The notes below the pieces were generated by a model. That model did not search any database and was not told the origin of the DNA. It was given only the letters and a program-made list of their open reading frames with translations. From Pseudoclavibacter sp. RFBB5 (GTDB lineage Bacteria > Actinomycetota > Actinomycetes > Actinomycetales > Microbacteriaceae): a DNA stretch of 64,000 bases. The DNA lies in the NCBI RefSeq assembly GCF_002931555.1, contig NZ_PSTZ01000007.1, positions 1-64,000 of the forward strand, read 5' to 3'. Of the stretch, positions 26,517 through 56,840 are shown one piece after another (position 1 is the stretch's first letter; the number at the start of each line of letters is the position of its first letter). A program made the position numbers and the translations under genes.

Positions 26517-27500
26517 GTGAGCAACGATTTCTTCTGGACGAACCCGCCTCGGGTGACGCAGAACGGCAACATCGGACCGACGGACTCGGCGCAGGTTCCG
26601 CGCTTCGCGGGCCCCGCGACGTTCGCGTTGCTGCCGCGTGTCGACGAGGTCGAGCAGCTCGACGTCGCGATCCTCGGCGTTCCCTTCGACAGTGGCGTCT
26701 CGTACCGCCCCGGAGCCCGCTTCGGTCCGGCGCACGTGCGCCAGTCGAGCCGCCTCCTCCGGCCGTACCACCCGACGCTCGATGTGTCCCCGTTCGCCGC
26801 CCAGCAGGTCGCGGACGCGGGCGACGTGCCCGTCAACCCGTTCGACATCGAGGAGGCGCTCGGCACGGTCGAGGCAGCAGCCAAGGCGTTGAGCGACACG
26901 GGCGCGAAGATCGTCACCATCGGCGGCGACCACACGATCGCGCTGCCGCTGCTGCGCAACATGGCGCGCATCCACGGCCCCGTCGCGATGCTGCACTTCG
27001 ACGCGCACCTCGACACGTGGGACACCTACTTCGGGGCTGCCTACACGCACGGCACGCCGTTCCGTCGCGCGTTCGAGGAGGGGCTGCTGGACACGGATGC
27101 GCTCAGCCACGTCGGCACGCGCGGGCCGCTCTACGGGAAGCAGGACCTCGAGGACGACGAGCGCTTCGGCTTCGGCATCGTCAGCTCGGCCGACATCTAC
27201 CGCCGTGGAGCTGACGCCGTCGTGCAGCAGCTGCGCGAGCGCATCGGCGACCGCCCCCTCTACATCTCGATCGACATCGACGTGCTCGACCCGGCGCATG
27301 CGCCGGGCACAGGAACGCCGGAGGCAGGCGGCATGACGAGCCGCGAGCTCCTCGAGATCCTGCGCGGACTCGCTGACCTCAACGTTGTCGGCGCCGACGT
27401 CGTCGAGGTGTCGCCGGCCTACGACCACGCGGAACTCACCGGCGTCGCCGCGGCCCACGTCGTGTACGAACTCGTGTCGATGTTCGCAGTGCGCAGCTAG
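26517..27500 (+). CDS. Ureohydrolase (agmatinase / guanidinobutyrase family)
   Basis: 327-residue dinuclear-manganese ureohydrolase. All metal-ligand motifs are present: [11 protein letters not shown] (about residues 138-148), [14 protein letters not shown] (about 160-173), the ESxHGT-like YTHGTPF and [22 protein letters not shown] (about 247-268). These place it with agmatinase, guanidinobutyrase and guanidinopropionase rather than arginase. It would release urea from a guanidino compound, giving an amine or amino acid. AAGGAGG precedes GTG 26517. It is a separate transcription unit with its own inverted repeat, next to the guanidino import cluster and about 16 kb from a DavB-like amino acid monooxygenase that could make 4-guanidinobutyramide from arginine. 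Confidence 0.9.
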
Positions 27501-27610: not shown

Positions 27611-27699
27611 CGAGGCGCGGCAGGGCGCGGCGGGTTGCCGTTCCGAGCCGCCCGGACGCCCCCGGTGAGCCAGAGGCTGCGACGTCCTAGGCTTCAGGC

Positions 27700-27750
27700 A
27701 TGGGAAGCACTGCGTGCGGCATCGTGTCCGACCTGGTGAACGAGCGATGA
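27700..27750 (+). CDS. 16-codon leader ORF coupled to the MBL gene
   Basis: Reads MGSTACGIVSDLVNER and stops at TGA 27748-27750, which overlaps the ATG 27747 of the next gene (ATGA). TAGGCT at 27688-27693 ends 6 bases before its ATG, so it would be the first codon of a leaderless message. The following gene has no convincing ribosome site; this mini-ORF would supply ribosomes to it by termination-reinitiation. Peptide function, if any, is unknown. Confidence 0.5.
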   Translation: MGSTACGIVSDLVNER

Positions 27751-39360: not shown

Positions 39361-40869
39361 CTATTCGACGTAGTCGAGGGCGATGACGAGTTCGGCGCGC
39401 ACGCGCGCGTCGTCGAGGTCGAGACCGAGCAGCCCCCGCAGCTGATCGATGCCGCGGCGCACGCTGTTGCGGTGGATCCCGAGTTCGCGACCGGTCGCGT
39501 CCCAGTGCCCGTTGGCGTGCAGCCAGGCTCGGAGCAGCGCGAGCTTCGCATCCCGCGCGACGGCGTCGAGGGCGAGCAACGGTTCGAGGCGCCGGTCGGC
39601 GAGCGCCCGGCCTGAGGCTGTGCCGATGAAGGAGTGCACGGGGGCGAGGTCGGCGCCGACGCGCACCACTCCACCGTCTTCGCGCGCGCGACGCTCGAGG
39701 GCGCGGACTTCGGCGGCGGATGCGCGCAGCTGCTCGGGTGCGACGGGCCGCCCGACGACGAAGCTCCAGCCTTCGTCGACGAGGGATGAGAGTCGTCGTT
39801 CGGTGACGTCGAGGCGCGTGATGAGCGTCACGGTGGCGTGCTCGGCGGAGATCGTGACGAGCTTCGTGTCGAAGAGGCTCCGCCAGCGGTGCAGCTCGCT
39901 GGTGCCTTTCGCGGCGGATGGTGCGCAGGCGACGACGACCCGAAGCGTCCGGGCACGCGCATCACCGCCTGCGGCCTGCGCGAGCAGCTCGCGCCAGAGC
40001 TCGCCGTCCTGGCCGACGTTCGAGCGCGCGAAGACGTCACCTTCTTCGAGGAGCAGCGGCACGAGCAGCTGCCCGGGCGCGACGCTGCCGGAGGTGCGCT
40101 GTCGGGCGATGAGCTCGAGCATGCCGTGGGCCGTCGTGAGGAACGCGTGGGCTGTCGAGCCGGCCGGGGGAGCGGCCTCGACGAGCAGGGTGCCGAGGGA
40201 CGCGCCGCCAAGGCTGCGCAGCGGGTAGATGGCGTGTCCGCTCTTGGTCGGGTCGGCGGCCTCCGCGAGGGCGCCGAGCACGGGCGCCGGCGGCACCTGT
40301 CCCGCCCGGGCGCGCACGGTTCCGCCCTGGCCGACGACGGCGGCCCACGAGTGGAGGCGTTCGGCGAGGGCCGCTGCGACGGCGGTCTCCGGCTGGTCGG
40401 CGGATGCGGCGCGCAGGAGCCTGCGGGTGGCGTCGGCGAGCGTGCGCAGCGCATCCACTCGCCGCAGCTCGGTCATCTCGGCGAAGGTGCGGGTGACCGC
40501 GACGAACGGGGTGTCGCTCGGGATGCGGATGAGGGTGAGGGCGTGCGCCCGGCACGCGTCGACGAGCGCGGGGGGAACTTCGGTGAAGACGGGGTCGATG
40601 CCGAAGCCGATCGCCACGACGCCGACCCGGACGGCCCGCTCGATGTAGCGGGCCAGGCCGGCTTCGTCGAGGCCGCGCAGGCCCACGCCGGCGGTCAGCA
40701 GGAACTCTCCGCCGAGAAGGTACGGGGTCGGGTCGGGGAGGTCGCTCGAGGCGACCCAGCGGATGCTCGTGTCGAGGGACCCGTCGACGAGCGCCTCGAG
40801 GTGCAGCTCGGGGCGTGCGAGCAGCTGGGCGATGGTGACCTGGCCGTGCGGTGACGAGGGTGATGGCAT
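39361..40869 (-). CDS. PucR-family transcriptional regulator
   Basis: 502-residue PucR/CdaR-type activator. Residues 8-125 are the PucR N-terminal domain (TIAQLLARPELHLEALVDGSLDTSIRWVASSDLPDPTPYLLGGEFLLTAG), a GGDEF-like middle (about 300-420) follows, and the C-terminal HTH_30 is LLALDAVARDAKLALLRAWLHANGHWDATGRELGIHRNSVRRGIDQL. PucR proteins usually activate purine, amine or amino acid catabolic genes. ATG 40869 has GGGAGC upstream; a longer reading was rejected. It is divergent from the permease-monooxygenase-glutaminase cluster, which it very likely controls. Confidence 0.88.
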   Translation of the reverse strand: MPSPSSPHGQVTIAQLLARPELHLEALVDGSLDTSIRWVASSDLPDPTPYLLGGEFLLTAGVGLRGLDEAGLARYIERAVRVGVVAIGFGIDPVFTEVPPALVDACRAHALTLIRIPSDTPFVAVTRTFAEMTELRRVDALRTLADATRRLLRAASADQPETAVAAALAERLHSWAAVVGQGGTVRARAGQVPPAPVLGALAEAADPTKSGHAIYPLRSLGGASLGTLLVEAAPPAGSTAHAFLTTAHGMLELIARQRTSGSVAPGQLLVPLLLEEGDVFARSNVGQDGELWRELLAQAAGGDARARTLRVVVACAPSAAKGTSELHRWRSLFDTKLVTISAEHATVTLITRLDVTERRLSSLVDEGWSFVVGRPVAPEQLRASAAEVRALERRAREDGGVVRVGADLAPVHSFIGTASGRALADRRLEPLLALDAVARDAKLALLRAWLHANGHWDATGRELGIHRNSVRRGIDQLRGLLGLDLDDARVRAELVIALDYVE

Positions 40870-41003
40870 GCGAGCTCCCGTGCATTCTGTCGCATCTTCG
40901 CGACGAACCGAGCATATCGCCCGTGTCTGCGCTGCTCGGTGCGACCATACGATGGCCACGCTCAACAGAGCTGATCGATCCCTGATCAAGAACGGAACCG
41001 TCA
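40870..41003. promoter_or_regulatory. Divergent promoter region of PucR gene and APC permease
   Basis: 134 bp between the two starts. TACGAT at 40948-40953 is a possible plus-strand -10 box. TGATCGATCCCTGATCA at about 40973-40989 is an imperfect inverted repeat close to the permease start and a candidate regulator site. No clear -35 box. Confidence 0.4.
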
Positions 41004-42512
41004 ATGGCGACATCACCCACCACGACCGGCAGGTCCCGCACGCCGCTCGGCGCGCAGCTCCTGCGCCGCAAGCCGCTGGAGCAGCTCACCGACGAGTCGC
41101 TGACCGAGTCTGGCGAGGGCGGCCTGAAGCGCACGCTCGGCATGTGGCAGCTGACGATGATCAGCGTCGGGGCGACGCTCGGCACGGGTATCTTCGTGAT
41201 CCTCGGCACCGCGGTCCCGCTAGCGGGCCCCGCCGTCTGGATCGCGTTCGCGGTCGCCGGTCTCGCGGCGCTCCTCTCCGCCCTCTCCTACGCCGAGATG
41301 GCGAGTTCCGTTCCCGTGTCTGGCTCGAGCTACTCCTACTCGTACGCGACGATGGGCGAGGGAGTCGCCTGGGTGTGCGGCTGGTGTCTCGTGCTCGAGT
41401 ACGGCGTGTCCGTCGCGGCCGTCGCGGTCGGCGCTGGCCAGTACGTCAACGAGACCCTCGGTGTCTTCGGCCTCGCCCTGCCGCCGGCCCTCGCGAACCC
41501 GATCGGCCTCGACGGCGGCTTCTTCAACCTGCCGGCCGCGGCCCTCGTGATCGTCGCGATGCTGCTGCTCGTGCGCGGCGCGAAGGAGAGCGCCTGGGTG
41601 AACACGGTCATGGTCGCCATCAAGGTCATCGTGCTGCTCATCTTCGTGTTCATCGCCTTCACGGCGTTCACGACGCAGAACTTCGAGCCGCTCGCCCCCA
41701 TGGGCGCCGCCGGTGTCGCGGCCGCCTCGAGCCGCCTCTTCTTCTCGTACATCGGCTTCGACGCCGCCTCCACGGCGGGTGACGAGGCGAAGAACCCGCA
41801 GAAGGACCTGCCGCGCGCCATCATCCTGTCGATGATCATCGTCACGGTCGTCTACATCCTCGTCGCGGTCGCCGCCATCGGCGCGCTCCCGTGGACCGAG
41901 TTCAACGACGGGGAGGCCGCGTTCGTGCGCATCCTCACCGACATCACGGGCCAGCCGGCGCTCGCCCTCATGTTCTCGGTGGGTGCCGTCATCGCCATCG
42001 CGAGCGTCGTGCTGACCGTCTACTACGGGCAGACGCGCATCCTGTTCCGCATGTCGCGCGACGGCATGGTGCCGAAGATCTTCGGCCGCGTGCGCCCCTC
42101 GACCGGCACCCCGGTCGCCGGCACGGTCATCGTCGGGACGATCATCGCGATCGTGGCCGCTTTCATCCCGCTCGGCGAGCTGGCGGATGCGACGAGCATC
42201 GGCACCCTGTTCGCGTTCGCGCTCGTGAACCTCTCGGTCATCTACCTGCGCCGGGCACGCCCCGAGCTGCCACGCAGCTACAAGGTGCCGTTCTTCCCCG
42301 TCGTTCCCATCCTCGGCATCGTCATGTGCCTCGGCCTCATGGTCACCCTGGGCGGCACCACGTGGATGGTGTTCGGTCTGTGGATGGTCGTGGGCGTCGC
42401 CCTGTACTTCGCGTACGGTCGGAAGCACTCCATCGTCGGCGCCATGAGCGAGAACGACTACGTCAACGCGGCAACGGCCGCGACCCCCGTCATCATGAAG
42501 GAGCACAAGTGA
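41004..42512 (+). CDS. APC-superfamily amino acid permease (CAT-like)
   Basis: 502-residue transporter with about 12 transmembrane helices, of the YfnA/cationic amino acid transporter branch. Landmarks are the broken first helix MISVGATLGTGIFVILGTAVPLAGPAV, SALSYAEMASSVPVSGSSYSYSYATMGEG, FFSYIGFDAASTAGDEAKNPQKDLPRAI, and MSRDGMVPKIFGRVRPSTGTPVAG, all family signatures. A 40-residue cytosolic N-tail precedes helix 1. The likely cargo is a basic amino acid, consistent with the next gene, a lysine- or arginine-type 2-monooxygenase, with which it overlaps by GTGA. Proton-driven import presumed. Confidence 0.9.
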   Translation: MATSPTTTGRSRTPLGAQLLRRKPLEQLTDESLTESGEGGLKRTLGMWQLTMISVGATLGTGIFVILGTAVPLAGPAVWIAFAVAGLAALLSALSYAEMASSVPVSGSSYSYSYATMGEGVAWVCGWCLVLEYGVSVAAVAVGAGQYVNETLGVFGLALPPALANPIGLDGGFFNLPAAALVIVAMLLLVRGAKESAWVNTVMVAIKVIVLLIFVFIAFTAFTTQNFEPLAPMGAAGVAAASSRLFFSYIGFDAASTAGDEAKNPQKDLPRAIILSMIIVTVVYILVAVAAIGALPWTEFNDGEAAFVRILTDITGQPALALMFSVGAVIAIASVVLTVYYGQTRILFRMSRDGMVPKIFGRVRPSTGTPVAGTVIVGTIIAIVAAFIPLGELADATSIGTLFAFALVNLSVIYLRRARPELPRSYKVPFFPVVPILGIVMCLGLMVTLGGTTWMVFGLWMVVGVALYFAYGRKHSIVGAMSENDYVNAATAATPVIMKEHK

Positions 42513-44221
42513 CCATCGCGACCCCGATGCCGAGCGGCCCCCAGCGCGCTGAAGGCGCATCCACGCCGCAGGACCCGCAGCCGGTGACCATGCTCAACCC
42601 GGACTTCCCGTTCAGCTACGACGAGTTCCTCGCGCACCCGGCTGGCCTCGGCTCGGTGCCGGAGCACCGCCACGGCACCGAGGTGGCCGTGGTCGGCGCC
42701 GGAGTCGCAGGTGTCGTCGCCGCGTACGAGCTCATGAAGATGGGGCTCAAGCCCGTCATCTTCGAGGCTGACAGCATCGGTGGGCGCCTGAAGACGCGCT
42801 CGTTCGACGCCGCTCCGAGCGTCATCGCCGACCTGGGTGGGATGCGCTTCCCCGAGTCGGGGCGCGCGTTCTACCACTACGTCGATCTGCTCGGGCTCGA
42901 GACGCAGGCGTTCCCCAACCCGCTCGCGGAGGTGACCCCGTCGACCGTCATCGAGCTCGCCGGGAGGTCGTTCTACGCGGAGACTCCCGCCGATCTGCCC
43001 CCGTTCTTCACGGAGGTGGCGGAGGCGTGGAAGCGCGCGCTGACGGAGGAGGCTGACCTGGTTCGCATCCAGGACGCCATCCGGGCGCGTGACACCGAGA
43101 CCCTGAAGGCCGCCTGGAACGAGCTGGTGGGGAAGTTCGACAACCGCTCGTTCTACGGTTTCGTGGCAGAGAGCGCGGCCTTCAGGGATCTCAGCTTCGA
43201 GCACATCGAGGCCTTCGGGCAGGTGGGCTTCGGCACGGGTGGATGGGACACCGACTTCGGCAACTCGATCCTCGAGATCCTGCGGGTCGTGTTCACGAAC
43301 GCCGACGACGCGCACCGCCGCATCGTGGGTGGTGCGCAGAAGCTGCCCGTCGACCTCTGGCACCACGAGCCGACCGAGCTCGAGCACTGGCCGGAGGGTA
43401 CGAGCCTCGCGAGCCTTCACGGCGGCGTGCCGCGCGGCGCGGTCGCCGCGATCAGGCGCGGCGCGAACGGCGGGGTCAGCATCACGGAGAAGTGGGGGCG
43501 CACCCAGGAGTTCGCGTCCGCCATCGTGACGTGCCAGTCGTGGCTGCTCTCGGCCCGCATCGACACCGACGAGGCGCTGTTCACGCCGGAGATGTGGACG
43601 GCCATCGAGAAGAGCCACTACATGCTCTCGTCGAAGACGTTTGTCATGGTCGACCGCCCGTTCTGGCGCGACCTCGACCCGGCGACGGGCAAGCCCGTCA
43701 TGAGCATGACCCTCACCGACCGTCTGCCCCGCGCCACCTATCTGATCGACGAGGGGCCAGACAAGCCGGCGGTCATCCTGCTCTCCTACACGTGGAACGA
43801 CGACGCCCTCAAGTGGCTGGCCCTCGACGCGTCGGAGCGCACGCGGCTCATGCTGCACTCACTCGACAAGATCTACCCAGGGCTCGATATCGGCGCGCAC
43901 ATCGTGGGCGAGCCGATCACCGTGTCGTGGGAGGCCGACCCCAACTACATGGGCGCCTTCAAGAACAACCTGCCAGGCCACTACCGGTACCAGGAGCGCC
44001 TCTTCGGGCACTTCGTGCAGGACGAGCTCGCCGCCGAGCAGCGAGGCATCTTCCTCGCCGGCGACGACATCTCCTTCACGGCGGGCTGGGCGGAGGGCGC
44101 CGTCACGACGGCACTCAACGCCGTGTGGGGCGTCGCGAAGCACCTGGGCGGCGCATCCGCTGCCGAGAACCCTGGACCGGGGGACGTGTGGGCGGAGCTT
44201 GCTCCGGTGCGCCTCGACTAG
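42509..44221 (+). CDS. DavB-like L-amino-acid 2-monooxygenase (FAD)
   Basis: 570-residue flavin amine-oxidase-fold enzyme. The FAD motif EVAVVGAGVAGVVAAYELMKMGLKPVIFEA is at about residues 55-84, then DLGGMRFPESGRAFYHYVDLLGLET, VGFGTGGWDTDFGNSILEI, the KTFVMVDRPFW strand, NLPGHYRYQERLFGHF and the C-terminal IFLAGDDISFTAGWAEGAV. The order and wording follow lysine 2-monooxygenase (DavB) and related arginine/tryptophan 2-monooxygenases, which oxidatively decarboxylate an L-amino acid to the carboxamide with one carbon less. No DavA-type nitrilase amidase is nearby; two glutaminases follow instead. GTG 42509 has AAGGAG 5 bases upstream and overlaps the permease stop. Lysine or arginine is the likely substrate; this is inference. 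Confidence 0.87.
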   Translation: MTIATPMPSGPQRAEGASTPQDPQPVTMLNPDFPFSYDEFLAHPAGLGSVPEHRHGTEVAVVGAGVAGVVAAYELMKMGLKPVIFEADSIGGRLKTRSFDAAPSVIADLGGMRFPESGRAFYHYVDLLGLETQAFPNPLAEVTPSTVIELAGRSFYAETPADLPPFFTEVAEAWKRALTEEADLVRIQDAIRARDTETLKAAWNELVGKFDNRSFYGFVAESAAFRDLSFEHIEAFGQVGFGTGGWDTDFGNSILEILRVVFTNADDAHRRIVGGAQKLPVDLWHHEPTELEHWPEGTSLASLHGGVPRGAVAAIRRGANGGVSITEKWGRTQEFASAIVTCQSWLLSARIDTDEALFTPEMWTAIEKSHYMLSSKTFVMVDRPFWRDLDPATGKPVMSMTLTDRLPRATYLIDEGPDKPAVILLSYTWNDDALKWLALDASERTRLMLHSLDKIYPGLDIGAHIVGEPITVSWEADPNYMGAFKNNLPGHYRYQERLFGHFVQDELAAEQRGIFLAGDDISFTAGWAEGAVTTALNAVWGVAKHLGGASAAENPGPGDVWAELAPVRLD

Positions 44222-44224
44222 CCT
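44219..44224 (+). promoter_or_regulatory. -10 box built from the preceding TAG stop
   Basis: TAGCCT begins with the stop codon of the monooxygenase gene and ends 6 bases before GTG 44231 of the first glutaminase. No ribosome site is present, so a leaderless internal promoter is likely. Confidence 0.45.
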
Positions 44225-44230
44225 TCCCGT

Positions 44231-45277
44231 GTGACTGACACTGGGAACGGCTCCATAGACGCAACGCACATGTTCGGCGACGAGCCGGAGATGGTGCACT
44301 CGAGCCGCTCGGCGATCTCGACGGGCCAGCTGCCCGACTCCGACGACGTGAAGACGGCGATCGACGAGACGTACGAGCAGTTCTCGTCGGTCGACGACGG
44401 CGAGGTGCCCGACTACATTCCTGCGCTGGCGGATGCGGATCCTGACCTGTTCGGGATCTGCATCGTCTCGACGGAGGGGCAGAGCTACAGTCGCGGCGAC
44501 GCGGAGCTGCTCTTCACGATCCAGTCGATCTCGAAGGCGTTCGTGTTCGCGCTCGTGCGCGAGGAGGTCGGGCACACGAAGGCGCGCGAGCTGGTGGGCG
44601 TCAACAACACGGGCCTGCCGTTCGATTCGGTCATGGCGATCGAGCTCAACGGCGGCCGCACCATGAACCCGCTGGTCAACGCGGGCGCGCTCGCGACCTC
44701 GGCGCTCGCGCCGGGGGAGACGTGGGAGGAGAAGTGGGACTTCATCCTCCGCGGCCTCTCCGGCTTCGCGGGGCGTGACCTCGAGATCGACGAGGACGCG
44801 TTCGAATCGGAGCGCAAGAACAACATCCGCAACCAGGGCATCGCGCGCCTGCTGCAGAGCTACGGGCACATCACGCTCGACCCGCACGAGGTGACGGAGC
44901 TGTACACGCGGCAGTGCGCGCTGCTCGTCACCACGGAGGACCTCGCCGTCATGGGGGCGACGCTCGCCGACGGCGGCAGGAACCCGAAGACGGGCGAGCA
45001 GGTCATCGGGCAGGGCGCATCCAGGGACGCGCTCGCCGTCATGGCCGCGAACGGGCTCTACGAGGCGAGCGGCGAGTGGCTGTACGAGATCGGGATGCCC
45101 GCAAAGAGCGGTGTCTCGGGCGGTCTCGTGACGATCGCCCCCGGCAAGGGCGGGTTCGCGAGCTACTCGCCGCGCCTCGACGACGCCGGCAACAGCGTGC
45201 GCGGCATCAAGGCGGCCAGGCACCTGTCGAACGAGCTCGGCATGAACCTCTTCGCGTCAGGCACCGTTCAAGACTAG
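44231..45277 (+). CDS. Glutaminase A family protein, copy 1
   Basis: 348-residue GlsA-type serine-dependent beta-lactamase-fold glutaminase. The nucleophile motif is FTIQSISKAF (SxxK, Ser about 101), with GVNNTGLPFDSVMAIELNGGRTMNPLVNAGALAT, a SYGHITLDPHEVTELYTRQCALLVT block and the KSGVSGGLVTIAPGKGGFASYSP loop closing the active site. Length is some 40 residues above E. coli YbaS, mainly N-terminal. It hydrolyses a carboxamide, glutamine in the known family; here it may hydrolyse the amide made by the upstream monooxygenase. GTG 44231 lacks a ribosome site and has a TAGCCT -10 box 6 bases upstream. Confidence 0.9.
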   Translation: MTDTGNGSIDATHMFGDEPEMVHSSRSAISTGQLPDSDDVKTAIDETYEQFSSVDDGEVPDYIPALADADPDLFGICIVSTEGQSYSRGDAELLFTIQSISKAFVFALVREEVGHTKARELVGVNNTGLPFDSVMAIELNGGRTMNPLVNAGALATSALAPGETWEEKWDFILRGLSGFAGRDLEIDEDAFESERKNNIRNQGIARLLQSYGHITLDPHEVTELYTRQCALLVTTEDLAVMGATLADGGRNPKTGEQVIGQGASRDALAVMAANGLYEASGEWLYEIGMPAKSGVSGGLVTIAPGKGGFASYSPRLDDAGNSVRGIKAARHLSNELGMNLFASGTVQD

Positions 45278-45280
45278 ATT
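45275..45280 (+). promoter_or_regulatory. Second stop-codon-embedded -10 box
   Basis: TAGATT starts with the TAG stop of glutaminase copy 1 and ends 7 bases before GTG 45288 of copy 2, which has no clear ribosome site. Confidence 0.45.
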
Positions 45281-45287
45281 CGGGGTC

Positions 45288-46334
45288 GTGACGACTCTCC
45301 CCGAACAGACACTCCTGCCGGAACACCCGACCGCGTTCCCCAGCGAGCCGGACCTCGTGCATCCAGACACCCGCGTGGTGTCGACCGGCAGTCTGCCGGA
45401 TGCCGAGCATGTGCGGGAGATGCTCTCCGAGACGTATGAGCGGTACCGCCACGTGCAGGACGGCGCCGTCGCCGACTACATCCCTGCGCTCGCGGAGGCC
45501 GACTCGTCCTGGTTCGGGCTGAGCCTCACCTCGGCGACGGGGCACCGATTCTCGTTCGGGGACGCGCAGCTCAAGTTCTCGATCCAGTCGATCTCGAAGG
45601 CGTTCGTCTACGCGCTGGTCGTGCAGGAGCTGGGGCATGAGGAGGTGCGCGAGCGCATCGGCGTCAACAACACGGGGCTGCCGTTCAACTCGGTCATGGC
45701 GATCGAGCTCAACGGCGGACGCACCATGAACCCGCTCGTCAACGCGGGGGCGATCGCGACGACGTCGCTCGTGCCCGGGAAGACGTGGGATGAGAAGTGG
45801 GACTTCATCCACGCGGGGCTGTCGAACTTCGTCGGCCACCCGCTCGAGATCGACGAGCGCGTCTACGAGTCGGAGATGCAGACCAACACGCGCAACCGCA
45901 GCATCGCGAGGCTGCTCGAGAGCTACGGGCACATCTCGCTCGACCCGACGCAGGTGACCGAGCTGTACACGCGGCAGTGCTCGCTGCTCGTGACCGCCGA
46001 GGACCTCGCGACGATGGGAGCGACGCTCGCCGACGGCGGCGACTGCCCGATCTCCGGCGTCGATGTCGTCGATCCGTCGGTGAGCCGCGACGTGCTGTCG
46101 GTGATGGCGACGAACGGCATGTACGAGGCGAGCGGCGACTGGCTGTTCGAGGTGGGCATGCCGGGCAAGAGCGGCGTCTCGGGCGGCATCGTCACGATCG
46201 CGCCCGGCAAGGGGTCGCTCGCGACCTTCTCACCGCCACTGGATGCGGCCGGCAACAGCGTGCGCGGCATCCGCGCGACCAGGCACCTCTCGAACAAGCT
46301 CGGCCTGAACATGTTCGCGTCGACCGTGCAGTAG
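45288..46334 (+). CDS. Glutaminase A family protein, copy 2
   Basis: 348-residue tandem paralogue of the preceding gene, equal in length and colinear. The SxxK motif is FSIQSISKAF, followed by the nearly identical GVNNTGLPFNSVMAIELNGGRTMNPLVNAGAIAT and KSGVSGGIVTIAPGKGSLATFSP. The N-terminal 60 residues and the region around residue 250 (DGGDCPISGVDVVDPSVSRD versus DGGRNPKTGEQVIGQGASRD in copy 1) differ most, so the two copies may have different amide substrates. Translation starts at GTG 45288 without a ribosome site. Both belong to the cluster behind the PucR regulator. Confidence 0.9.
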   Translation: MTTLPEQTLLPEHPTAFPSEPDLVHPDTRVVSTGSLPDAEHVREMLSETYERYRHVQDGAVADYIPALAEADSSWFGLSLTSATGHRFSFGDAQLKFSIQSISKAFVYALVVQELGHEEVRERIGVNNTGLPFNSVMAIELNGGRTMNPLVNAGAIATTSLVPGKTWDEKWDFIHAGLSNFVGHPLEIDERVYESEMQTNTRNRSIARLLESYGHISLDPTQVTELYTRQCSLLVTAEDLATMGATLADGGDCPISGVDVVDPSVSRDVLSVMATNGMYEASGDWLFEVGMPGKSGVSGGIVTIAPGKGSLATFSPPLDAAGNSVRGIRATRHLSNKLGLNMFASTVQ

Positions 46335-48785: not shown

Positions 48786-48859
48786 CGGGCTGTGGCGCAG
48801 CTTGGTAGCGCACCTGACTGGGGGTCAGGGGGTCGCAAGTTCAAATCTTGTCAGCCCGA
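48786..48859 (+). tRNA. tRNA-Pro (anticodon GGG)
   Basis: 74-base cloverleaf: acceptor stem CGGGCTG with CAGCCCG and discriminator A; anticodon stem CCTGA with TCAGG around the loop CTGGGGG, which gives anticodon GGG for proline CCC codons; T-arm GCAAG-TTCAAAT-CTTGT. CCA is not encoded. It is directly followed by a strong terminator and then by the accessory defence island, so it probably served as an integration site. Confidence 0.93.
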
Positions 48860-48880
48860 CGGTGAGATGTCGCAAGACGC

Positions 48881-48927
48881 CGAAATGGCTCGAACCTGCA
48901 GTTGCGGGTTCGAGCCATTTCGTTTTT
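48881..48927 (+). terminator. Intrinsic terminator of tRNA-Pro
   Basis: CGAAATGGCTCGAACC (48881-48896) and GGTTCGAGCCATTTCG (48907-48922) form a perfect 16-bp stem with a 10-base loop, followed by TTTTT. Textbook rho-independent terminator. Confidence 0.9.
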
Positions 48928-49109
48928 CGGGTGGGTCCTCCGGAGTTGCCGGTGGGTTGGTAGTCCTCGCTGAGTTCGGTGGTGAGCTCGCGGAGGACTT
49001 CCCCGGTGGTGGCGTTGATGACGGTCACATCGCAGACTTGGATGAGGTGTTTGACATGGGTTCGTCCGATACCCATGTGATGGAATTTGCTGTCGTGAGC
49101 TAGGCAGGC
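48918..49109 (-). pseudogene. C-terminal remnant of an IS481-type transposase
   Basis: In one minus-strand frame the sequence reads LAHDSKFHHMGIGRTH and then VTVINATTGEVLRELT followed by EDYQPTG and PTRKTK. This is the characteristic end of IS481-family integrase-core transposases in actinobacteria (RLHHIGIGRTH, ...ATTGEILRELTLDPTRDYQPTG). Only about 64 codons remain; the catalytic DDE part and the other IS end are missing and the reading frame runs on into the tRNA terminator. It is the scar of a mobile element at the tRNA side of the defence island. Confidence 0.75.
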
Positions 49110-49773
49110 AGGCGCCAGCAGTCACTCCCGATGATGATTCCGCGATGGAAGTCGATGGCGCCTACGAGACAAGCCAACGCCGAGCATAGGTGTAGCGCCG
49201 TGCCGGTCATATGCCTGGCAGGAACGAGCAGCAGTGGGAACGGCGAGCGGACCGTCCGGCAGGACCACCCCGAAACCGCACCGTACAGGCGGGGCGTCGC
49301 GCTTCCCACGTTCACGTCCAACGTTGGCTGCCTCGAGCTGAGCTCCCTGCTGTTCCGGTCGCGCGACGGTATGCCGCTAAGAGCCGTGAACGTGCGCCGC
49401 GAGTTGCCACGAATACTCTGGTGAGCGGTGGGCGACGCTGTGGTTTTACACATGTTCCGCCGCACGTGAGGTCCACGTCAACGCCAGCGTCGAGCTCGCG
49501 GCAGAACCTCCCGGCCAGACGGACACGGTGACGCCCCACATCCATCGAAAAGGGTGAACACGGAAACGGCTTCGCTGCTTGACTGGGCGTTCAGTTGGCA
49601 CGAGAAGTGAGGGCGGTGCTGTCACGGTGGCAGCACCGTCGCACCTACGAGATCGCTACTTCTCTGGGCTGAGCTCGCCGCACAACTTCAAGGCTGCTGG
49701 GCGCCTGAATTCCTTCTCGTTCTACAGGCGACTGCTGAGTACCTGAAAAGCTCTCAATCAGAATCTTTCAACT
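49110..49773. other. Gene-free A/T-richer stretch in the island
   Basis: No convincing gene. Open frames here have no ribosome sites and unusual composition, clearly less GC-rich than the flanking chromosome. One hairpin, CGGTGCTG (49614-49621) with CAGCACCG (49631-49638), is seen. Probably decayed mobile DNA between the IS remnant and the defence genes. Confidence 0.5.
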
Positions 49774-49980
49774 TCATGCCCTCTTCTCACCGTTGACCTG
49801 CGAGGATAAGGATTGCGCAGTGAAGATGCGGTCGAGGGTTTCTGCTGTCGACTCAACGGTATCCACTGAAATGCGCGCCTCAAATGGAGTGACCCGCCGA
49901 CGACTCATCAGTGTAGCCCGAATGTGATCTGCGCGATTTGCGTTGTCTAGGACGGGCCGTGCGTCGCTCAGGTGCACCAC
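49774..49980 (-). pseudogene. Short unrecognised ORF, possibly a gene fragment
   Basis: 68 codons reading LSDARPVLDNANRADHI and MSRRRVTPFEARISVDTVES, then AETLDRIF. The end resembles the last strand and helix of small P-loop kinases (a VDT-x6-ET-x2-RI pattern), but no nucleotide-binding loop is present, so if real it is a 3' fragment. Weak evidence; could be chance. Confidence 0.25.
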
Positions 49981-50082
49981 ATGGTTAACTGTTCATTCGC
50001 TATGAAACCTGATTCCCGAGGGATTGGTCTATTGGGGATAATCGTGATTCCCGGGCGAGATTGGCGTCAATGTGAACTGAGG

Positions 50083-52164
50083 CTAATCGGCGAACACTGT
50101 GGCAAATATCTCTTCAAGCTCGCGGAGTATCGAAGCCGCTTCGTCCCCGAGTCGTCTCGCATATTCATCCTTCGTTGTGACTTCCCGGCAAAATTGGATG
50201 GAAGCCTCGACTTTGTCAGAGGTGGTCACCGAGCCGCAGTACGCCTCGAGATCTCCGTGTCTTAGGACGTGCACACGCTCCCGAGCAAGCCCCTGCACGA
50301 GGGCGTCTCGTTTTTCCTTGATTGGGCCGGTAGGTGGCGAAGCTAAGATGCTCTCCCTATAGGCGCCTCGACCGAGGTCAAAGAGTTCGGATAGGGCTTC
50401 TTCAAGAGCCCGGGCGGGCTCTTCTTGACGCGACTCGCGCCATTCAGTCAGATAGCCTTGCGCTGCTTTCCACAGTTCAGCAGCATTGCGTCGTGTGGCT
50501 ATGGCCTTCACCGTCTTTGCATTCGGGGTGCTCTCCGAAGGGAGGTGTTTGTGCACAGCTGACATGAGGTCGGAGTGCTGTAGCTTTAATTCGCTGTCAG
50601 ACGTCAGGTGGTTGAATCCGTCGACCAAAGAGTCAAGGTCAGTGATAACGTAGACGGGAACCTCAAACTTAGCAAAGAAGTCGCGGTACCGTGTGATGTT
50701 CCCCTTGCCCCCAATCTTGACGAACATCACATTTCGGTCGTATTGGTCCCACTTCGCGGAGAGTATCCTCGCTAGATGTGGGAAGATGATGGTGTCACTA
50801 TCTCCCTCGACGAGGACAACCTTTCTAGCGAAAAAGCCGGCCTCGTTGTTCTCGTGATGGATCAGTTGATAAGCGTCACGAGCTTGCATGGATATCTCGA
50901 CAGGGTAAGCAGACACGCCACTATCCGTTTTCTGGAGCTTTGCGAAACCGCTGGTTGTGGGAGTGAAGAAACCGGGTGAATGAGTCGTAACGAGGACCTG
51001 ATGGTCGAGGGCGAAAATTTCGAGTGCGGCCATCAGTTGTCTTTGCGCGCGCGGGTGTAGGTAAAGTTCAGGTTCCTCGAAAAGAAGAATGTAGGCATGT
51101 CGTTTCGAGGCAGTTGCGGGCTCGGCGCCAAGGCCACGTCCCCGAAGCTCGGTATACGCGCGCAAGATGGCGAAAAGGACCGTTCTCTTCAGTCCGTCCC
51201 CTTTGCTCGCGAGCATTCCGCGATGACCGTCGTCGACGGTTAACTCAGTGCCACTCAGAATTGTGGCCAGAGTCGGGGCAGGCACGTTCATGCGTAGTGT
51301 GACGTCGGGGAAGCTGTTTTGGACGAACCGCTCGATTGTCGTTTCGATGAGCTTCACGGCGGGGAGTCGCTCATCGGATTCTTTGCCGTCGGCTACCAGG
51401 ACCCGACTCAGTTTGGAGTGGATCCCCGCAAACTGTGTCTCAATGTTTCCCAGCTGGTCCTCCACCTCAGTGAACAGCAGCTCGAGCAACCTGCTAAACG
51501 TGGCTGTCCCAGTCGGCCTGGCCTCGGAAGTTGCGTCCTTGACCGCCTCGATGTAGATGACACTGGGCAGAAGAGGCTTGAGGCCGGCGCTTATGCCAGT
51601 GGCGAATTTTGCTGGCACCGCTACTAGCTGCTCGGCCGGCAGCTCCCGTTTAAGCCTTTTCCATTGCTCTCGAACTTCACCGATTTTTGGAGCATCGCCC
51701 AGTACATCTTTGAAGCGCGGTTGAAGCTCGATGGCAGCAGTTCGAAGCCCGGCCCCCTTCTTCCCTCCAATCGCTTCCTCTAGCCGGGCGTCATCCCAGT
51801 CGGCGGACTTCGGTTCGAAGTCCCAGTAACGGGACTCGGCGGTCGTTGTCTTGCCCTGAGTGCGAACAAGTGTCAGGGAGCCATCTCGGATCATGCTCGC
51901 AACCCGCTCTCGATGAGCCTCGGCAACCCTGGACAGATCATCGGCGTCGATGTCGTCTATCCGGAGGGTGACAGAGACTGTTTCGTCGGGGGCCCGGAAG
52001 TCGTTTGGGGTGAGCTTTCTCTCTTCGAGTACGAATTGCAGGGCGTGGAGCACGGAAGATTTGCCAGCGTTGTTTTCGCCAATCAAGCATCCAAGTTGTG
52101 TCAGGGGGATAGTTGTGTCCGCGTGAGCTCGAAAATTCTCAATACGGATGTTCGTCAGTTTCAT
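50083..52164 (-). CDS. OLD-family ATP-dependent nuclease (AAA + TOPRIM)
   Basis: 693-residue overcoming-lysogenization-defect-type nuclease. The ABC-ATPase half starts MKLTNIRIENFRAHADTTIPL with Walker A LIGENNAGKSSVLHAL (about residues 28-43); Walker B is LLFEEPELYLHPRAQ and the switch is VTTHSPGFF (about 340-395). The TOPRIM nuclease domain has VVLVEGDSDTIIFPHL (metal glutamate near residue 447) and VYVITDLDSLVDG (DxD about 505). Such enzymes are phage-defence effectors (OLD, GajA). No GajB helicase is adjacent; instead HamAB lies upstream on the same strand, 280 bases away. ATG 52164 has GGAGAACC nearby. A/T-richer than the host, as expected for acquired DNA. Confidence 0.88.
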   Translation of the reverse strand: MKLTNIRIENFRAHADTTIPLTQLGCLIGENNAGKSSVLHALQFVLEERKLTPNDFRAPDETVSVTLRIDDIDADDLSRVAEAHRERVASMIRDGSLTLVRTQGKTTTAESRYWDFEPKSADWDDARLEEAIGGKKGAGLRTAAIELQPRFKDVLGDAPKIGEVREQWKRLKRELPAEQLVAVPAKFATGISAGLKPLLPSVIYIEAVKDATSEARPTGTATFSRLLELLFTEVEDQLGNIETQFAGIHSKLSRVLVADGKESDERLPAVKLIETTIERFVQNSFPDVTLRMNVPAPTLATILSGTELTVDDGHRGMLASKGDGLKRTVLFAILRAYTELRGRGLGAEPATASKRHAYILLFEEPELYLHPRAQRQLMAALEIFALDHQVLVTTHSPGFFTPTTSGFAKLQKTDSGVSAYPVEISMQARDAYQLIHHENNEAGFFARKVVLVEGDSDTIIFPHLARILSAKWDQYDRNVMFVKIGGKGNITRYRDFFAKFEVPVYVITDLDSLVDGFNHLTSDSELKLQHSDLMSAVHKHLPSESTPNAKTVKAIATRRNAAELWKAAQGYLTEWRESRQEEPARALEEALSELFDLGRGAYRESILASPPTGPIKEKRDALVQGLARERVHVLRHGDLEAYCGSVTTSDKVEASIQFCREVTTKDEYARRLGDEAASILRELEEIFATVFAD

Positions 52165-52444
52165 GGTTCTCCGGTTGTCGGCTTCTTTGCTGGCGGAACT
52201 TTACCAACAATGCGAGGTCCGTCATCTTCGAGCCGATTGCTAGGTTGGCGTAGTACGTCTCTTCGGTCGTAATAGCGCCCGGGCGTGTGTGGCTCCAGCC
52301 AGTTACGTGCTGCTCAGGGCTGCCGCCACCACTGCATCCGAGGCTGCCGATCTCGCGGCGATTTTCGATATCGGTGTGATGCGGGCCTGACGGTTCTAGG
52401 GGTGAAATGAAGGTAAGGGCGACAAGCGCTGAGTCGATATGCTC

Positions 52445-55411
52445 CTATGTTCCTCGCCTGACGGCAACGTCTAAAACGGTGCGGCGGTAAACAAGCGTAC
52501 CGAGCCGGGAAAGCCAGGTGTCTTCGTCTGCGAGCAGGTCCCGCGCGATCGACCATGGGGTCGCGAAGATGTTGTTGAAGGTGTTGTCCATTGCTGGATC
52601 TGTGCCGAGGGCGACCGCTGCGAGCCGATGCCGCATGCCACGTGCCATTAGTTCTCGCGCGGCCGATGTGGATACCCCGAAGCGTAGGAAGTCAGGCAAG
52701 GCAGCGATGACCGGGGCAAGAGCTTCGTCGCCTGTCACAGCGAGATGCTCCTGGATGAGCGCGATCGCCTGCTCCACGAGAGTGACGAAGTTGTACATCA
52801 CTACTTTCGCGTGAATTCGTAGAAGCGTGTCTGCGCTGACGCCCACCCGCTCAGCGATGTGCTCGTATGAGCGGCCCTCCAGCCAGGCGAGCACCAGGGT
52901 GGTCAGCGATCCGCCGAGGTCCGTAATTTCGGTTCGGCGGTACTCGGTCTCAGCGTCGCTCGTGAACCCGGGCTGCTGCAGCGCCCAATCCACGAGAACA
53001 CGGATGAGTTCTACGTCCACGGCTGAGTCCGTGGTTCTCCAGCGTTCATAGCGTGGAAGCAAATCATTGATCACCCGGTCAACCAGTCGTGGCCGGGCAG
53101 AGCTGGTGCGCGTAAGGGCGAGACGCCCTGTCGAGCGCATCTCGACCATGCGCCGTGCGCGCAGTTCAAACACGGTGTTCAGCACTGCACGCTCGTTGTT
53201 GTTTGCCTTCGCGGACGCGAACGTCTCATCGGCGAGATTCTCCGCTATCTGTATGAACTCGTCCTCACCTAGCTCGTCTCTAATTAGTTCGATGAGTGCC
53301 GCGTCAACACCATCTACGAGCGGTAACAAGGGCGCATTCGCTTCTAGCACCCCATTGGTCAGCTGTCGCTCACTGTGGGCCAATGCTCGTGCGAGACGAC
53401 GGATCAGTTCAATGACGGCACCCTCCACCGGCTCACCGGGCTGTCCTTCAGCAACCGGGCTGACCACTTTCCAGTCGTCAGGGTTGGCACAAATCACTAG
53501 CCCCCGAGTGGAGCTTCCAGCCCGGCCAGCACGCCCAACGAGGTTCTTGATGTCTCGCGCCAGCATTGCCTCGGGTGCCCTCCCGTCCGAGCTGCGCTTC
53601 ACTGAGTACAACACCATCGTCCGGAGTGGAAGATTGACTCCCTCGGCCAGGGTGCTGGTGCACAACACCATAGAGACATGACGGTTCGAGACCAACTCTT
53701 CAAGCACCTCGCGGGTCTCTTGTGGGATATCGCCGTGGTGCACGATCGCTCCAGCGTGAAGCGCCCGGGTGCCAATCCAGCCGTCCCCGAACTCGTGAGA
53801 CAGGTAGGCCACGACTGACTCAACTATCTGCGTGTCGTTCACGTAGCTCGAGGGGGCGGGTAAGGCGAGACCGGAGTCGATCTGCTTGAGAAGCTCGTTC
53901 GCCAATCCCACGACACCCCTGTTTCCTCCCTTCTCGGTCGCGAAGACTGCAACCGGTCCGAGTGCGAGCGCTTTCCGCGCAGCGGCTACAGCTCTGGTCT
54001 TCGTTGATGAGTGGGCGTAGCTGTTACGTCTACGCGTGATCGGATTCGTGTCTTGAAAGTCGGTGGGTCGCAGGAACTCCGGTAACGTGTGCGACGGGAC
54101 CGACGTGACTGGCTCGTGAAGTTCTAACCCAATAGTCGCCGTCCGACCAGAGCCGAACGGACGCAGCACCGCGAACTCGGCGATGGACGGTCGGTAGTCG
54201 CTTCTCACCACGGTCGCGTCGGATCCACCGAGCCAGCTGTTGATCTCCTCGACGTTGGGGACGATTGCTGATATGAACACGATCCGCGGGCTCGGGTTCC
54301 GAGCCTTCAGACGCGCGAGCAGAAGCTCAAGCCCTACGCCGCGCGCTCCGCTGTCCAGGAGGTGTCCTTCGTCGCACACCACCAGCGAGATGGTCTGTAA
54401 AAGTTCCGGGTGCGCTCCGATGAGGCCGGTGAGGGCCTCGGGCGTCGCGATGATGACGCGAACATCGACCAGCTCCTCACGTTCCTCAATTCCAGGCACG
54501 GTGCCTCCGTAAACCGTCCGAGAACGTAGCCCCATGGAGGTCAGATACCGGCCGACGCTTCCGCGCAACTCCCGAGCCAGCGCACGATAAGGCACGAGCA
54601 GAACTGCTTTGCTGTGGGGTGAGCGCGTGAGGTGGTCGAAGATGAGGGTTTCGGTAAGCGCAGTCTTCCCTGTTCCGGTGGGCATCTGTAGCGAGTAGGA
54701 CTGGGAACTCGTCAGGAGACCCGCATTGATCGCCTCAATCTGGGAAGGGAAGAAGTCCCAGACTGGCTGCTGTCTGTCGAGGAACGACTCAACGAGAGGA
54801 TCCCACCTCTTGATCACGCCATCCGGAAGCACTGCGCGCAAGTTGGTCTGCTGGAACCGCTGCAAGAGCGCCAAGTACAGCCGGTGCGCCACCCATTCTT
54901 CGGGTCCGGTATCGAGGGCCTGGGCAACACTGGCCTCCGCCGTGGCAACCGCGGCGTTAACTACCTGGAGGTCACCGGTCCGCACCGACCGCAGGAGAGC
55001 ACCCGTTAGGGACGAGCCTGAATTCATGCCACGAGTCAGAAGCTCATACGCCGCCGCCTCAACGCTGGTCTCCCAATACTCTGGATCAGCCCGACGCATC
55101 GTCATGACGGCTGACGCAGGAAAGCCACCCAAGTAGAACGCGATCGAAGAGAAAAACAAGGCATCCGCTCCGGCGCCCTGCTGAAGCTCATGGCTCACAG
55201 AGTCGAGACCGCGACCGACCGACGCCCAGTCTGCCGGATCAGCGGCTCCGTCCCTCACCATGTCGAACAGCTCACCGACAAGCGAGTAATACAGGTCCTT
55301 GTTGCGATCCACGAGGTAGTCGAGCTGAGCCAGGCGCGTGTTAAGCCGAAAATCATCAATCGCTTGGTTGGTCTCCGCATCCGCGATCCAACGTCTCAAG
55401 GTCTCCCTCAT
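52445..55411 (-). CDS. hamB: Hachiman defence helicase HamB
   Basis: 988-residue SF2 DEAD/DEAH-box helicase. Walker A is MPTGTGKTALTETL (about residue 246), motif II CDEGHLLDSGARG (about 348), motif III FISAIVPN, and motif VI NLVGRAGRAGSS (about 625). About 230 residues precede the motor and 340 follow it, including a C-terminal helical region with an HTH-like SYEHIAERVGVSADTLLRI. HamB in known Hachiman systems is a DNA helicase that senses damaged or phage DNA and releases HamA. Its ATG overlaps the hamA stop (ATGA). The pairing with a DUF1837 gene makes the call firm. Confidence 0.9.
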   Translation of the reverse strand: MRETLRRWIADAETNQAIDDFRLNTRLAQLDYLVDRNKDLYYSLVGELFDMVRDGAADPADWASVGRGLDSVSHELQQGAGADALFFSSIAFYLGGFPASAVMTMRRADPEYWETSVEAAAYELLTRGMNSGSSLTGALLRSVRTGDLQVVNAAVATAEASVAQALDTGPEEWVAHRLYLALLQRFQQTNLRAVLPDGVIKRWDPLVESFLDRQQPVWDFFPSQIEAINAGLLTSSQSYSLQMPTGTGKTALTETLIFDHLTRSPHSKAVLLVPYRALARELRGSVGRYLTSMGLRSRTVYGGTVPGIEEREELVDVRVIIATPEALTGLIGAHPELLQTISLVVCDEGHLLDSGARGVGLELLLARLKARNPSPRIVFISAIVPNVEEINSWLGGSDATVVRSDYRPSIAEFAVLRPFGSGRTATIGLELHEPVTSVPSHTLPEFLRPTDFQDTNPITRRRNSYAHSSTKTRAVAAARKALALGPVAVFATEKGGNRGVVGLANELLKQIDSGLALPAPSSYVNDTQIVESVVAYLSHEFGDGWIGTRALHAGAIVHHGDIPQETREVLEELVSNRHVSMVLCTSTLAEGVNLPLRTMVLYSVKRSSDGRAPEAMLARDIKNLVGRAGRAGSSTRGLVICANPDDWKVVSPVAEGQPGEPVEGAVIELIRRLARALAHSERQLTNGVLEANAPLLPLVDGVDAALIELIRDELGEDEFIQIAENLADETFASAKANNNERAVLNTVFELRARRMVEMRSTGRLALTRTSSARPRLVDRVINDLLPRYERWRTTDSAVDVELIRVLVDWALQQPGFTSDAETEYRRTEITDLGGSLTTLVLAWLEGRSYEHIAERVGVSADTLLRIHAKVVMYNFVTLVEQAIALIQEHLAVTGDEALAPVIAALPDFLRFGVSTSAARELMARGMRHRLAAVALGTDPAMDNTFNNIFATPWSIARDLLADEDTWLSRLGTLVYRRTVLDVAVRRGT

Positions 55412-56220
55412 GCGACAGCCTGGGACTCCTCAGCGCTGACCAACGCCGCGTCATACACCGACTCGTAGATCGCCTTCAGATCGGGCACGGAGATCACAAT
55501 CAACACCCTCTCGTCCCCAGGCGGGGCCTCGACACCTTCCAACTCTGACTCAACCAGTGCGGAAGAAATCACCGCGACGGCTCGGAACTCGCGTTTAGCC
55601 GCCGGATAGTCGACCGCGTGAATGAACCGATCGAGTTGATCCACGGAGACAGTGGAGAGGCCGGTGTCCAGTGCGCGCTCCTTCAACCAGTTCAACGTTT
55701 TCACGAAGCGTCGCGAGCTGTCCTTTCTCGAATCCTCGATGGCACTCGCAACTGGCTTCGAGTTCCCCCGAGTCGACTTCGTCTTCACCTCGGAACAGAT
55801 GACACGGTCCTCATCGGATGGATTTGGCCAGTGCGGAAGGATCAACTGAACGACATCGGAACCAGGCGCCGGCTTCGTGCGGTCCTGCTTCAGCCGCCAT
55901 TTTTTCGGATCAAACACCTCTCCCGGATACTCGCGAGCGGCCTGAAACACGGCAGCAAGAATCTCCCCGAAGTCGCCAGCCATCGTTGACCCCCGGTCGG
56001 GCAGCTTAGCGCCGATGATTGCCCCCGCAGAGGACCCAGTCATGGCCGTGCGCTCGTGAAGGGCTCCGTCTCCGATGTAGCAGCGGCGAACGGGAACACC
56101 GAGCTTCCCGGCGAGCGCTGCTGCCTGCTCCGCATCAATCTCGACGAGGGCGAAAGGACTGCTCTGAATCGTCGCGAAGAGATCTCCGAACGCTTTGAGG
56201 TCGATCTCAAGTTCCTGCAC
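55408..56220 (-). CDS. hamA: Hachiman defence nuclease HamA (DUF1837)
   Basis: 270-residue DUF1837 protein. The diagnostic block is GDFGEILAAVFQAAREY, DPKKWRLKQDRTKPAPGSDVVQLIL and VICSEVKTKST, i.e. a PD-(D/E)xK-type active site with D in PGSDVV and E/K in SEVKTK at about residues 120-155. HamA degrades DNA when released by HamB, causing abortive infection. GTG 56220 is chosen because GTAGG lies 9 bases before it; a TTG at 56262 opens the frame further upstream. First gene of the pair; its promoter must lie in the 56.2-56.4 kb region. Confidence 0.88.
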   Translation of the reverse strand: MQELEIDLKAFGDLFATIQSSPFALVEIDAEQAAALAGKLGVPVRRCYIGDGALHERTAMTGSSAGAIIGAKLPDRGSTMAGDFGEILAAVFQAAREYPGEVFDPKKWRLKQDRTKPAPGSDVVQLILPHWPNPSDEDRVICSEVKTKSTRGNSKPVASAIEDSRKDSSRRFVKTLNWLKERALDTGLSTVSVDQLDRFIHAVDYPAAKREFRAVAVISSALVESELEGVEAPPGDERVLIVISVPDLKAIYESVYDAALVSAEESQAVA

Positions 56221-56840
56221 GGCGGCCCACCTACCCCTTTTCAACGCTGACGTCACATTCAAAGCCCATCATGACGCCTCGAAGACAAGGCGCCGCGTAC
56301 CACGCTTCGCGGCGAGTCACGAACAGCGGCATGGGCCACGATCAAAGTTCACTACAAGTTGCCGTATCCCTGGCACGCACGCAACCATCAACACCTGCAT
56401 GGATAAGGCGGCCAACGTGCTTGGACGACAGATGAGTCCGAAAAGCCGAACGCAGGACACAGTACCGCTCAACGACTGTTCGCAAGCGGTTAGAGAGACG
56501 ACACCGTGGGGGCCTGTGTCTGACAGGCTGGGCATCCCACCGTCTACCCATCTAAAACAACAGCGACGAATCGATGTGGCCGCGTGCAAACGGAGGGAGC
56601 GAGCCTCTCGGGTCCCCGTCAGCACAGGCAAACCGCGAGTTGCCGAGCCGATCGTGCCGGCCGGGAATTGGTCGGATCCTGCAAGAGGTTGCAGCTTCAA
56701 ATCCCGTCACTTCGACATAGAAACGTCGGTGAGACGTGGTCTTGCGAGATCATTGTCGTTGACGCGGTTCGCGTCTCGCGTGCCGAGCCAGTCGACTGAG
56801 TAGCTCTCGAGCAATTGTCGTGAAGTCTGTCCGAACGCCC
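56221..56840. other. 620-bp region upstream of hamA, island edge
   Basis: No supported gene. It must contain the minus-strand hamA promoter; no clear consensus pair is visible. It includes the tRNA-3'-end-like sequence at 56687-56716. Composition is A/T-richer than the chromosome on the far side. Confidence 0.45.
56687..56716 (+). other. Degenerate copy of the tRNA-Pro 3' end (candidate attachment site)
   Basis: The 30 bases match positions 48831-48860 at 22 of 30 without gaps, sharing TTCAAATC and GTCA and ending in CGAC. It lies in the same orientation as the tRNA and at the far edge of the defence island, as expected for an old att site. The T-stem no longer pairs, so it is not a functional tRNA. 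Confidence 0.4.

Follow-up and report, generated by a model that had tools for sequence, protein, structure and literature searches.

Here we analyzed a gene cluster on contig NZ_PSTZ01000007.1 of the actinobacterium Pseudoclavibacter sp. RFBB5, within a stretch of 64,000 nucleotides (positions 1 to 64,000 of the forward strand), hereafter the window. The cluster (window 39361-46334; Table 1) contains a PucR-family regulator gene (pucR), which faces four genes on the opposite strand: an amino acid permease gene (perm), a gene for a DavB-like 2-monooxygenase (davB), and two genes for YbaS-type glutaminases (glsA1 and glsA2). This arrangement had been proposed in a reading made from the sequence alone (the sequence-only reading), and domain matches verified the families, order, and positions of all five genes. 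The same reading had proposed that the two glutaminases replace the nitrilase-type amidase (DavA) of the pathway. Our analysis points instead, with a probability of about 0.72, to the arginine oxygenase (2-monooxygenase) route as it occurs in Pseudoclavibacter, with a dispersed amidase gene and with GlsA proteins that are ordinary glutaminases.

Table 1. Genes and candidate signals of the davB cluster, and the ureohydrolase gene of the same window (window positions).
Feature	Position	Strand	Description	Basis or remark
pucR	39361..40869	-	PucR-family transcriptional regulator, divergent from perm	PF07905 and HTH_30
perm	41004..42512	+	APC-family amino acid permease	PF13520/PF00324
davB	42509..44221	+	Flavin adenine dinucleotide (FAD) basic-amino-acid 2-monooxygenase, probably arginine 2-monooxygenase	PF01593
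glsA1	44231..45277	+	YbaS-type glutaminase	PF04960
glsA2	45288..46334	+	YbaS-type glutaminase, tandem duplicate of glsA1	PF04960
Candidate operator TGATCGATCCCTGATCA	40972..40988	.	Upstream of perm	Read by eye
TAGCCT box	44219..44224	+	Candidate leaderless -10 element	6 nt before glsA1 start
TAGATT box	45275..45280	+	Candidate leaderless -10 element	7 nt before glsA2 start
Ureohydrolase gene	26517..27500	+	Guanidinobutyrase/guanidinopropionase group	Best solved relatives

The open reading frame listed for pucR extends to 41016 and overlaps perm; its start is probably the ATG at 40869. The start of davB is probably the GTG at 42509, which overlaps the TGA of perm by 4 bp and is preceded by an AAGGAG motif (42498-42503), so that perm and davB probably form a single translation-coupled unit. 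The description of the whole run as operon-like is well grounded for this pair, whereas glsA1 and glsA2 look separately transcribed.

To place the cluster in context, named genomes were scanned with a DavB alignment; the best 80 of 295 relatives were kept, and neighbors of davB were sought by tblastn in flanks of up to 10 kb on each side. The gene order recurs at all four of the other Pseudoclavibacter davB loci (P. terrae, P. helvolus, sp. AY1H1, and sp. AY1F1, with DavB proteins 97-99% identical to the one studied here) and is thus not due to chance. GlsA lies beside davB at these four of the 80 loci and was not found at the 76 davB loci outside the genus. At 72 of those 76, the flanks contain a match to a nitrilase-superfamily amidase (counting partial matches in L091 and L122), and the four without one (L113, L116, L125, and L059) are each truncated at one or both sides by the end of the contig. 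The usual order in the Arthrobacter group is amidase, reverse-oriented pucR, perm, and davB, and a PucR gene occupies the same divergent position at 65 of the 76 loci. The location of the amidase outside the cluster, together with the glsA pair after davB, is a true lineage-specific difference of Pseudoclavibacter.

The reported absence of a DavA-type amidase was borne out in the window but not in the genome as a whole. Three CN_hydrolase genes were found there, one of which, nit2 (contig C17, about 199841-200677), is a davB-type amidase; davB itself lies on contig C1. A tree was built of 57 CN hydrolases, for which amidase proteins were sought at 24 named cluster loci (L091 yielded none); three outgroup rows and L207 were flagged as long and unsure. 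In this tree, the nit2 proteins of all five Pseudoclavibacter species fall inside the davB-associated clade (support 100/99), which unites amidases encoded beside davB with those of two davB-positive genomes that carry the gene elsewhere. Within it, nit2 is sister to the Micrococcaceae/Cryobacterium cluster amidases (95/83), and it is separate from the deaminated-glutathione-amidase-like CN hydrolase of the same genome. The protein retains the catalytic Glu-Lys-Cys triad (E97, K174, and C208) and, with the three long-branch outgroup rows left out, 47 of 51 conserved and 13 of 14 clade-marking columns. It is about 44% identical to the Arthrobacter and 45% to the Cryobacterium cluster amidases, which are 52% identical to each other, so that nit2 is just moderately more diverged. 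A codon comparison, in which the GTG start is kept in all five species, indicated purifying selection (w 0.10-0.18). These values slightly exceed those of glsA2 (0.065-0.098) and davB (0.036-0.051) and are similar to or lower than those of pucR (0.15-0.20), and the idea of a decaying gene was rejected. At the sequence level, nit2 is thus a predicted example of what the sequence-only reading had named as evidence that would overturn its proposal: a gene for DavA or a guanidinobutyramidase at another place in the genome.

The occurrence of nit2-type amidases follows that of davB. In a set of 60 genomes that includes the query genome, 47 matched the davB query and nine were counted as carrying davB (64-100% identity, >750 bits); this count excludes G026 (31%, two stops) and short matches to the FAD motif. 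The nine best nit2 matches come from exactly these nine genomes (E <= 2.6e-33; next, 7e-22), although five of the nine belong to one Pseudoclavibacter clade and thus represent fewer independent events than is apparent. Across 396 genomes of the order, which were searched with an Arthrobacter cluster amidase (E <= 1e-26; davB-positive at E <= 1e-100) and for which only the best first-look candidates per genome (3 and 6) were scored, a davB-type amidase is present in 29 of 32 davB-positive versus 18 of 364 davB-negative genomes (Fisher p 2e-28, without correction for kinship), covering 10 of 12 davB genera. Of these 29 genomes, 19 have the amidase gene no more than 20 kb from davB; the ten that do not, several of them drafts with short contigs, include the genome studied here. 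Among the 80 davB loci, the davB-glsA neighborhood for which the sequence-only reading had suggested a survey is found in Pseudoclavibacter only, and there the genome still carries nit2.

The two glutaminases themselves show the features expected of their family. GlsA1 and GlsA2 score 431.6 and 441.3 with model NF009020 (cut-off 395) and 331.6 and 353.5 with TIGR03814 (cut-off 255.4). They are the only GlsA proteins found in the genome and are tandem duplicates that arose within this lineage (tree support 100/98); in a search of the genus, the pair is present in 5 of 10 genomes, three others have different glutaminases (43-47% identical), and two show none. The pocket residues of glutaminases contact glutamine also at its alpha-amino and alpha-carboxyl groups, both of which are absent from 4-guanidinobutyramide and 5-aminovaleramide. 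All ten glutamine-pocket sites checked, including the catalytic Ser-Lys, are intact in both proteins in all five Pseudoclavibacter species; in human-enzyme numbering, we take these to be Y249, Q285, S286, K289, N335, E381, N388, Y414, Y466, and V484. Among 20 comparison glutaminase rows, six of the sites are conserved in every row, and Y249, Q285, E381, and V484 in 13, 18, 18, and 19, respectively. No alteration of the pocket was seen at these ten sites.

No clear Shine-Dalgarno sequence was seen before glsA1 or glsA2. A TAGNNT box stands 6-7 nt before the start of glsA1 in four of five species and of glsA2 in all five, and in this genome both boxes overlap the upstream stop codon. In G007, 1.77 kb separate davB from glsA1, and a TAGGGT box lies 7 nt before a possible ATG (by eye). 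Such a box precedes 15 of the 3773 ATG/GTG triplets of the window (0.4%). As the boxes fit the TANNNT pattern and a clear Shine-Dalgarno sequence is absent, each glsA gene may be transcribed on its own, and the consensus match suggests that they may lie on separate leaderless transcripts. Taken together, a nit2 that belongs to the davB-associated clade and co-occurs with davB, the intact GlsA pockets, and the apparent separate transcription leave the proposed replacement of the amidase by glutaminases unsupported.

The substrate of DavB is probably arginine. The protein belongs to the flavin amine-oxidase family and is similar over its full length to the lysine oxidase/monooxygenase of Pseudomonas sp. 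AIU 813 (3we0; 57.7% identical over the aligned stretch), by which we assigned it to the DavB family; no curated NCBIfam model scored above its cut-off. It keeps R102, W235, D238, Y416, W418, F473, and W516 in AIU 813 numbering (R111, W244, D247, Y425, W427, F482, and W525 in the 568-residue reading P0002) and carries the changes C254A, Q258H, and A515G, the second of which places a histidine at a water-mediated contact. A study that describes the residue roles of this active site reports that Lys, Orn, and Arg are bound through their basic end by Asp238, and that Trp and Phe enzymes have a pocket widened by A515G and W235F together (PMC5832979). Positions 254, 258, and 515 read A/H/G in 83 of 85 DavB proteins, all 83 of which are actinobacterial and keep W235; the other two, from proteobacterial plasmid loci, read L/Q/A.

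Neighboring genes in relatives point in the same direction. The presence of a ureohydrolase at 26517, noted by the sequence-only reading, was confirmed; among solved structures, it is closest to 3-guanidinopropionase and guanidinobutyrase. Its gene belongs to another cluster, of guanidino type, some 15 kb upstream of davB. Ureohydrolase genes occur at 6 of the 80 davB loci, plus L044 and L045. A Tsukamurella tyrosinosolvens plasmid apparently holds the whole arginine oxygenase set, with speB, an amino acid permease, a CN hydrolase, and a DavB-like gene in succession (L206:4728-9653), as would be expected for conversion of arginine to gamma-aminobutyrate (GABA). The two proteobacterial plasmid loci have a CN hydrolase and no annotated ureohydrolase within 6 kb of davB. 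The Pseudoclavibacter genome also contains a GABA transaminase gene that scores above its model cut-off. Comparative support for the predicted full route from arginine by way of 4-guanidinobutyrate to GABA comes from the ureohydrolases near davB in other genera, the active-site signature, and the transaminase gene.

The cluster around the ureohydrolase gene (window 17520-28769) is a second one of guanidino type. It also encodes a dimethylarginine-hydrolase-like protein, a 2-hydroxyacid dehydrogenase, an M20 hydrolase, a metallo-beta-lactamase-fold protein, a thiamine diphosphate enzyme that matches 5-guanidino-2-oxopentanoate decarboxylase below the cut-off, and an amino acid ABC transporter whose match to lysine/arginine/ornithine binding proteins likewise stays below the cut-off. 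This cluster may constitute a second arginine or other guanidino route.

The permease is 64-73% identical to davB-adjacent permeases of Arthrobacter-group and Cryobacterium loci and is predicted to take up the DavB substrate. Its earlier label as a cationic amino acid permease stands as far as the APC family is concerned, while "cationic" is unproven: Among the best 25 of 33 models, no curated one exceeds its cut-off, the best being BcaP (branched-chain; 507.9 bits, cut-off 690), and the cationic model TIGR00906 gives 300 bits (cut-off 681.7). Upstream of perm, the GATCGATCCCTGATCA part of the candidate operator TGATCGATCCCTGATCA is kept at all five Pseudoclavibacter loci (by eye). A search allowing up to three mismatches found one match in the window and at least one in 22 of 100 shuffles, so that the element is a candidate because of its conservation and not its match count. 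The same search gave no match in the nit2 locus (L004), whose upstream region has its own conserved palindrome-like element, AACCGAATT..TTTCGGTT (by eye). Common regulation of nit2 and perm-davB was rejected on these grounds.

From the computed gene order, families, residue conservation, co-occurrence, and amidase tree, we infer substrates, step identities, transcription units, and regulation as follows. The permease would import a basic amino acid, most likely arginine, which DavB would oxidatively decarboxylate to 4-guanidinobutyramide. The dispersed nitrilase-type enzyme encoded by nit2 would hydrolyze this amide to 4-guanidinobutyrate and ammonia, and a guanidinobutyrase, probably the product of the ureohydrolase gene at 26517, would yield GABA and urea, with GABA passing to the GABA transaminase. 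PucR would control perm-davB. GlsA1 and GlsA2 would be ordinary L-glutaminases, tandem duplicates with their own transcripts, which are neighbors of davB either by chance or as part of the same amino acid and ammonia economy.

Several observations weigh against this arginine route. The AIU 813 enzyme has relative oxidase activities of 31% on ornithine and 6% on arginine compared with lysine (PMC5832979), so that family membership leaves the substrate unsettled. Guanidinobutyrase-like ureohydrolases are frequent in davB-negative genomes as well. The best NCBIfam score of nit2 is 83.9 bits (cut-off 500), no curated model identifies it as a DavA, and its best solved relatives are general amidases (about 110 bits). 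Its stem branch is long (1.2), it is unlinked to davB, and in all five species its divergent neighbor is a CytX/NCS1-type permease gene (PF02133; C17:198019-199518), which at E <= 1e-40 has no relative in the remaining 55 of the 60 genomes. The nit2 upstream element differs from the perm operator candidate, so co-regulation with davB is unsupported. For these reasons, the function of nit2 as DavA or guanidinobutyramidase is one that we infer. Within the genus, co-occurrence of nit2, davB, and glsA amounts to about one event, and 3 of the 32 davB-positive genomes of the order gave no amidase match. The glsA pair always adjoins davB in the davB genomes of the genus, which the arginine route has to treat as coincidence or loose grouping. 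Finally, given a TAG, the TAGNNT pattern 6/7 nt before ATG/GTG arises in 10 of 381 window cases (2.6%), so that the leaderless boxes are no more than suggestive.

Among other explanations, the best placed is that DavB prefers lysine, in which case the genes would form a DavB-DavA route to 5-aminovalerate with nit2 as DavA. The nearest solved relative is indeed a lysine enzyme, and DavB keeps Asp238, the contact for the basic group in Lys, Orn, and Arg alike. We nevertheless consider this unlikely, because the ureohydrolases near davB in several genera have no obvious role in lysine breakdown and all 83 actinobacterial rows combine A515G with Q258H and lack W235F, the partner of A515G in the wider pocket of the Trp and Phe enzymes. 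It is also conceivable, if improbable, that nit2 serves the CytX-type permease in the use of another compound, with the amide step left to an amidase-signature (PF01425) gene or a promiscuous enzyme. The conserved divergent pairing, the rarity of that permease, and the presence of four PF01425 genes in the genome (five matches, two in one frame) fit this idea; the tree position of nit2 and the order-wide co-occurrence of nit2-type amidases with davB do not, and the other four davB-positive genomes of the 60 carry the amidase without this permease.

A role of GlsA1, GlsA2, or both in hydrolyzing the carboxamide made by DavB, after the nitrilase-type amidase left the cluster and drifted, appears very unlikely. 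It would account for the glsA pair following davB in all five Pseudoclavibacter davB genomes and at none of the 76 other loci, 72 of which have the amidase match in their flanks, for the long nit2 stem, and for a lineage-specific N132D change in GlsA1 (window 44624-44626; Asp in all five species, Asn in 18 of 20 comparison rows). Against it stand a clade-member nit2 with a full catalytic triad and under purifying selection, its moderate divergence (44%/45% against 52%), and the ten intact pocket sites, presumably including those that contact the alpha-amino and carboxylate groups missing from the proposed substrates. Least probable of all is a non-orthologous replacement in progress, with both enzymes present, in which a duplicated GlsA gained carboxamide activity and the amidase moved beside the CytX-type permease.

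The cluster thus probably belongs to a route of known kind, the arginine oxygenase pathway, with a dispersed amidase. For Pseudoclavibacter and the Arthrobacter group, this reading defines genes by which the route can be tested, including an amidase gene, nit2, that neighborhood-based annotation would miss. It does away with the idea, attractive but unsupported, of glutaminases having assumed the amide hydrolase step. In addition, the A254/H258/G515 signature (AIU 813 numbering) may separate arginine-type from lysine-type DavB proteins, which is relevant to annotation and to enzyme choice for 5-aminovalerate or GABA production.

Elsewhere in the window, a region of lower guanine-cytosine content (0.56-0.63; 48786-58000) adjoins a tRNA-Pro gene (48786-48860). 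An OLD-family nuclease (50083-52164) and a HamA-HamB pair, which is a Hachiman-type defense locus (52445-56262), are encoded further along.

In comparison with known systems, DavB shares its FAD amine-oxidase family and the seven kept residues with the AIU 813 enzyme (3we0, 5yb6-8) and differs from it in the three substitutions and in having relatives whose neighboring genes point to arginine. In Streptomyces, an arginine monooxygenase and a 4-guanidinobutyramide hydrolase supply the azalomycin starter unit (PMC5082578). The first two steps proposed here, from arginine through 4-guanidinobutyramide to 4-guanidinobutyrate, are the same (compared at the level of steps), whereas the Pseudoclavibacter route would be catabolic and lead to GABA and urea rather than to a coenzyme A ester, and its amidase gene is unlinked. 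A literature search of titles and abstract openings found no published DavB-GlsA link; within that scope, one article on human transaminases mentions both "glutaminase" and "lysine monooxygenase" (PMC8875635). The DavA-type amidases encoded beside davB in Arthrobacter, Nesterenkonia, Cryobacterium, and Tsukamurella fall in the same clade as nit2, which keeps most of the conserved residues but lies on another contig with a different upstream region. The best solved match of both GlsA proteins is E. coli YbaS (1u60), with nine of ten pocket sites identical and Glu in place of Gln at the tenth; in Pseudoclavibacter, by contrast, two tandem copies adjoin a monooxygenase gene. We assume that the E. 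coli ybaS gene, too, adjoins an amino acid permease gene. Older work in these very genera describes the arginine oxygenase pathway as a catabolic one, and the classical studies were reportedly made in Brevibacterium helvolum (now Pseudoclavibacter helvolus) and Arthrobacter globiformis.

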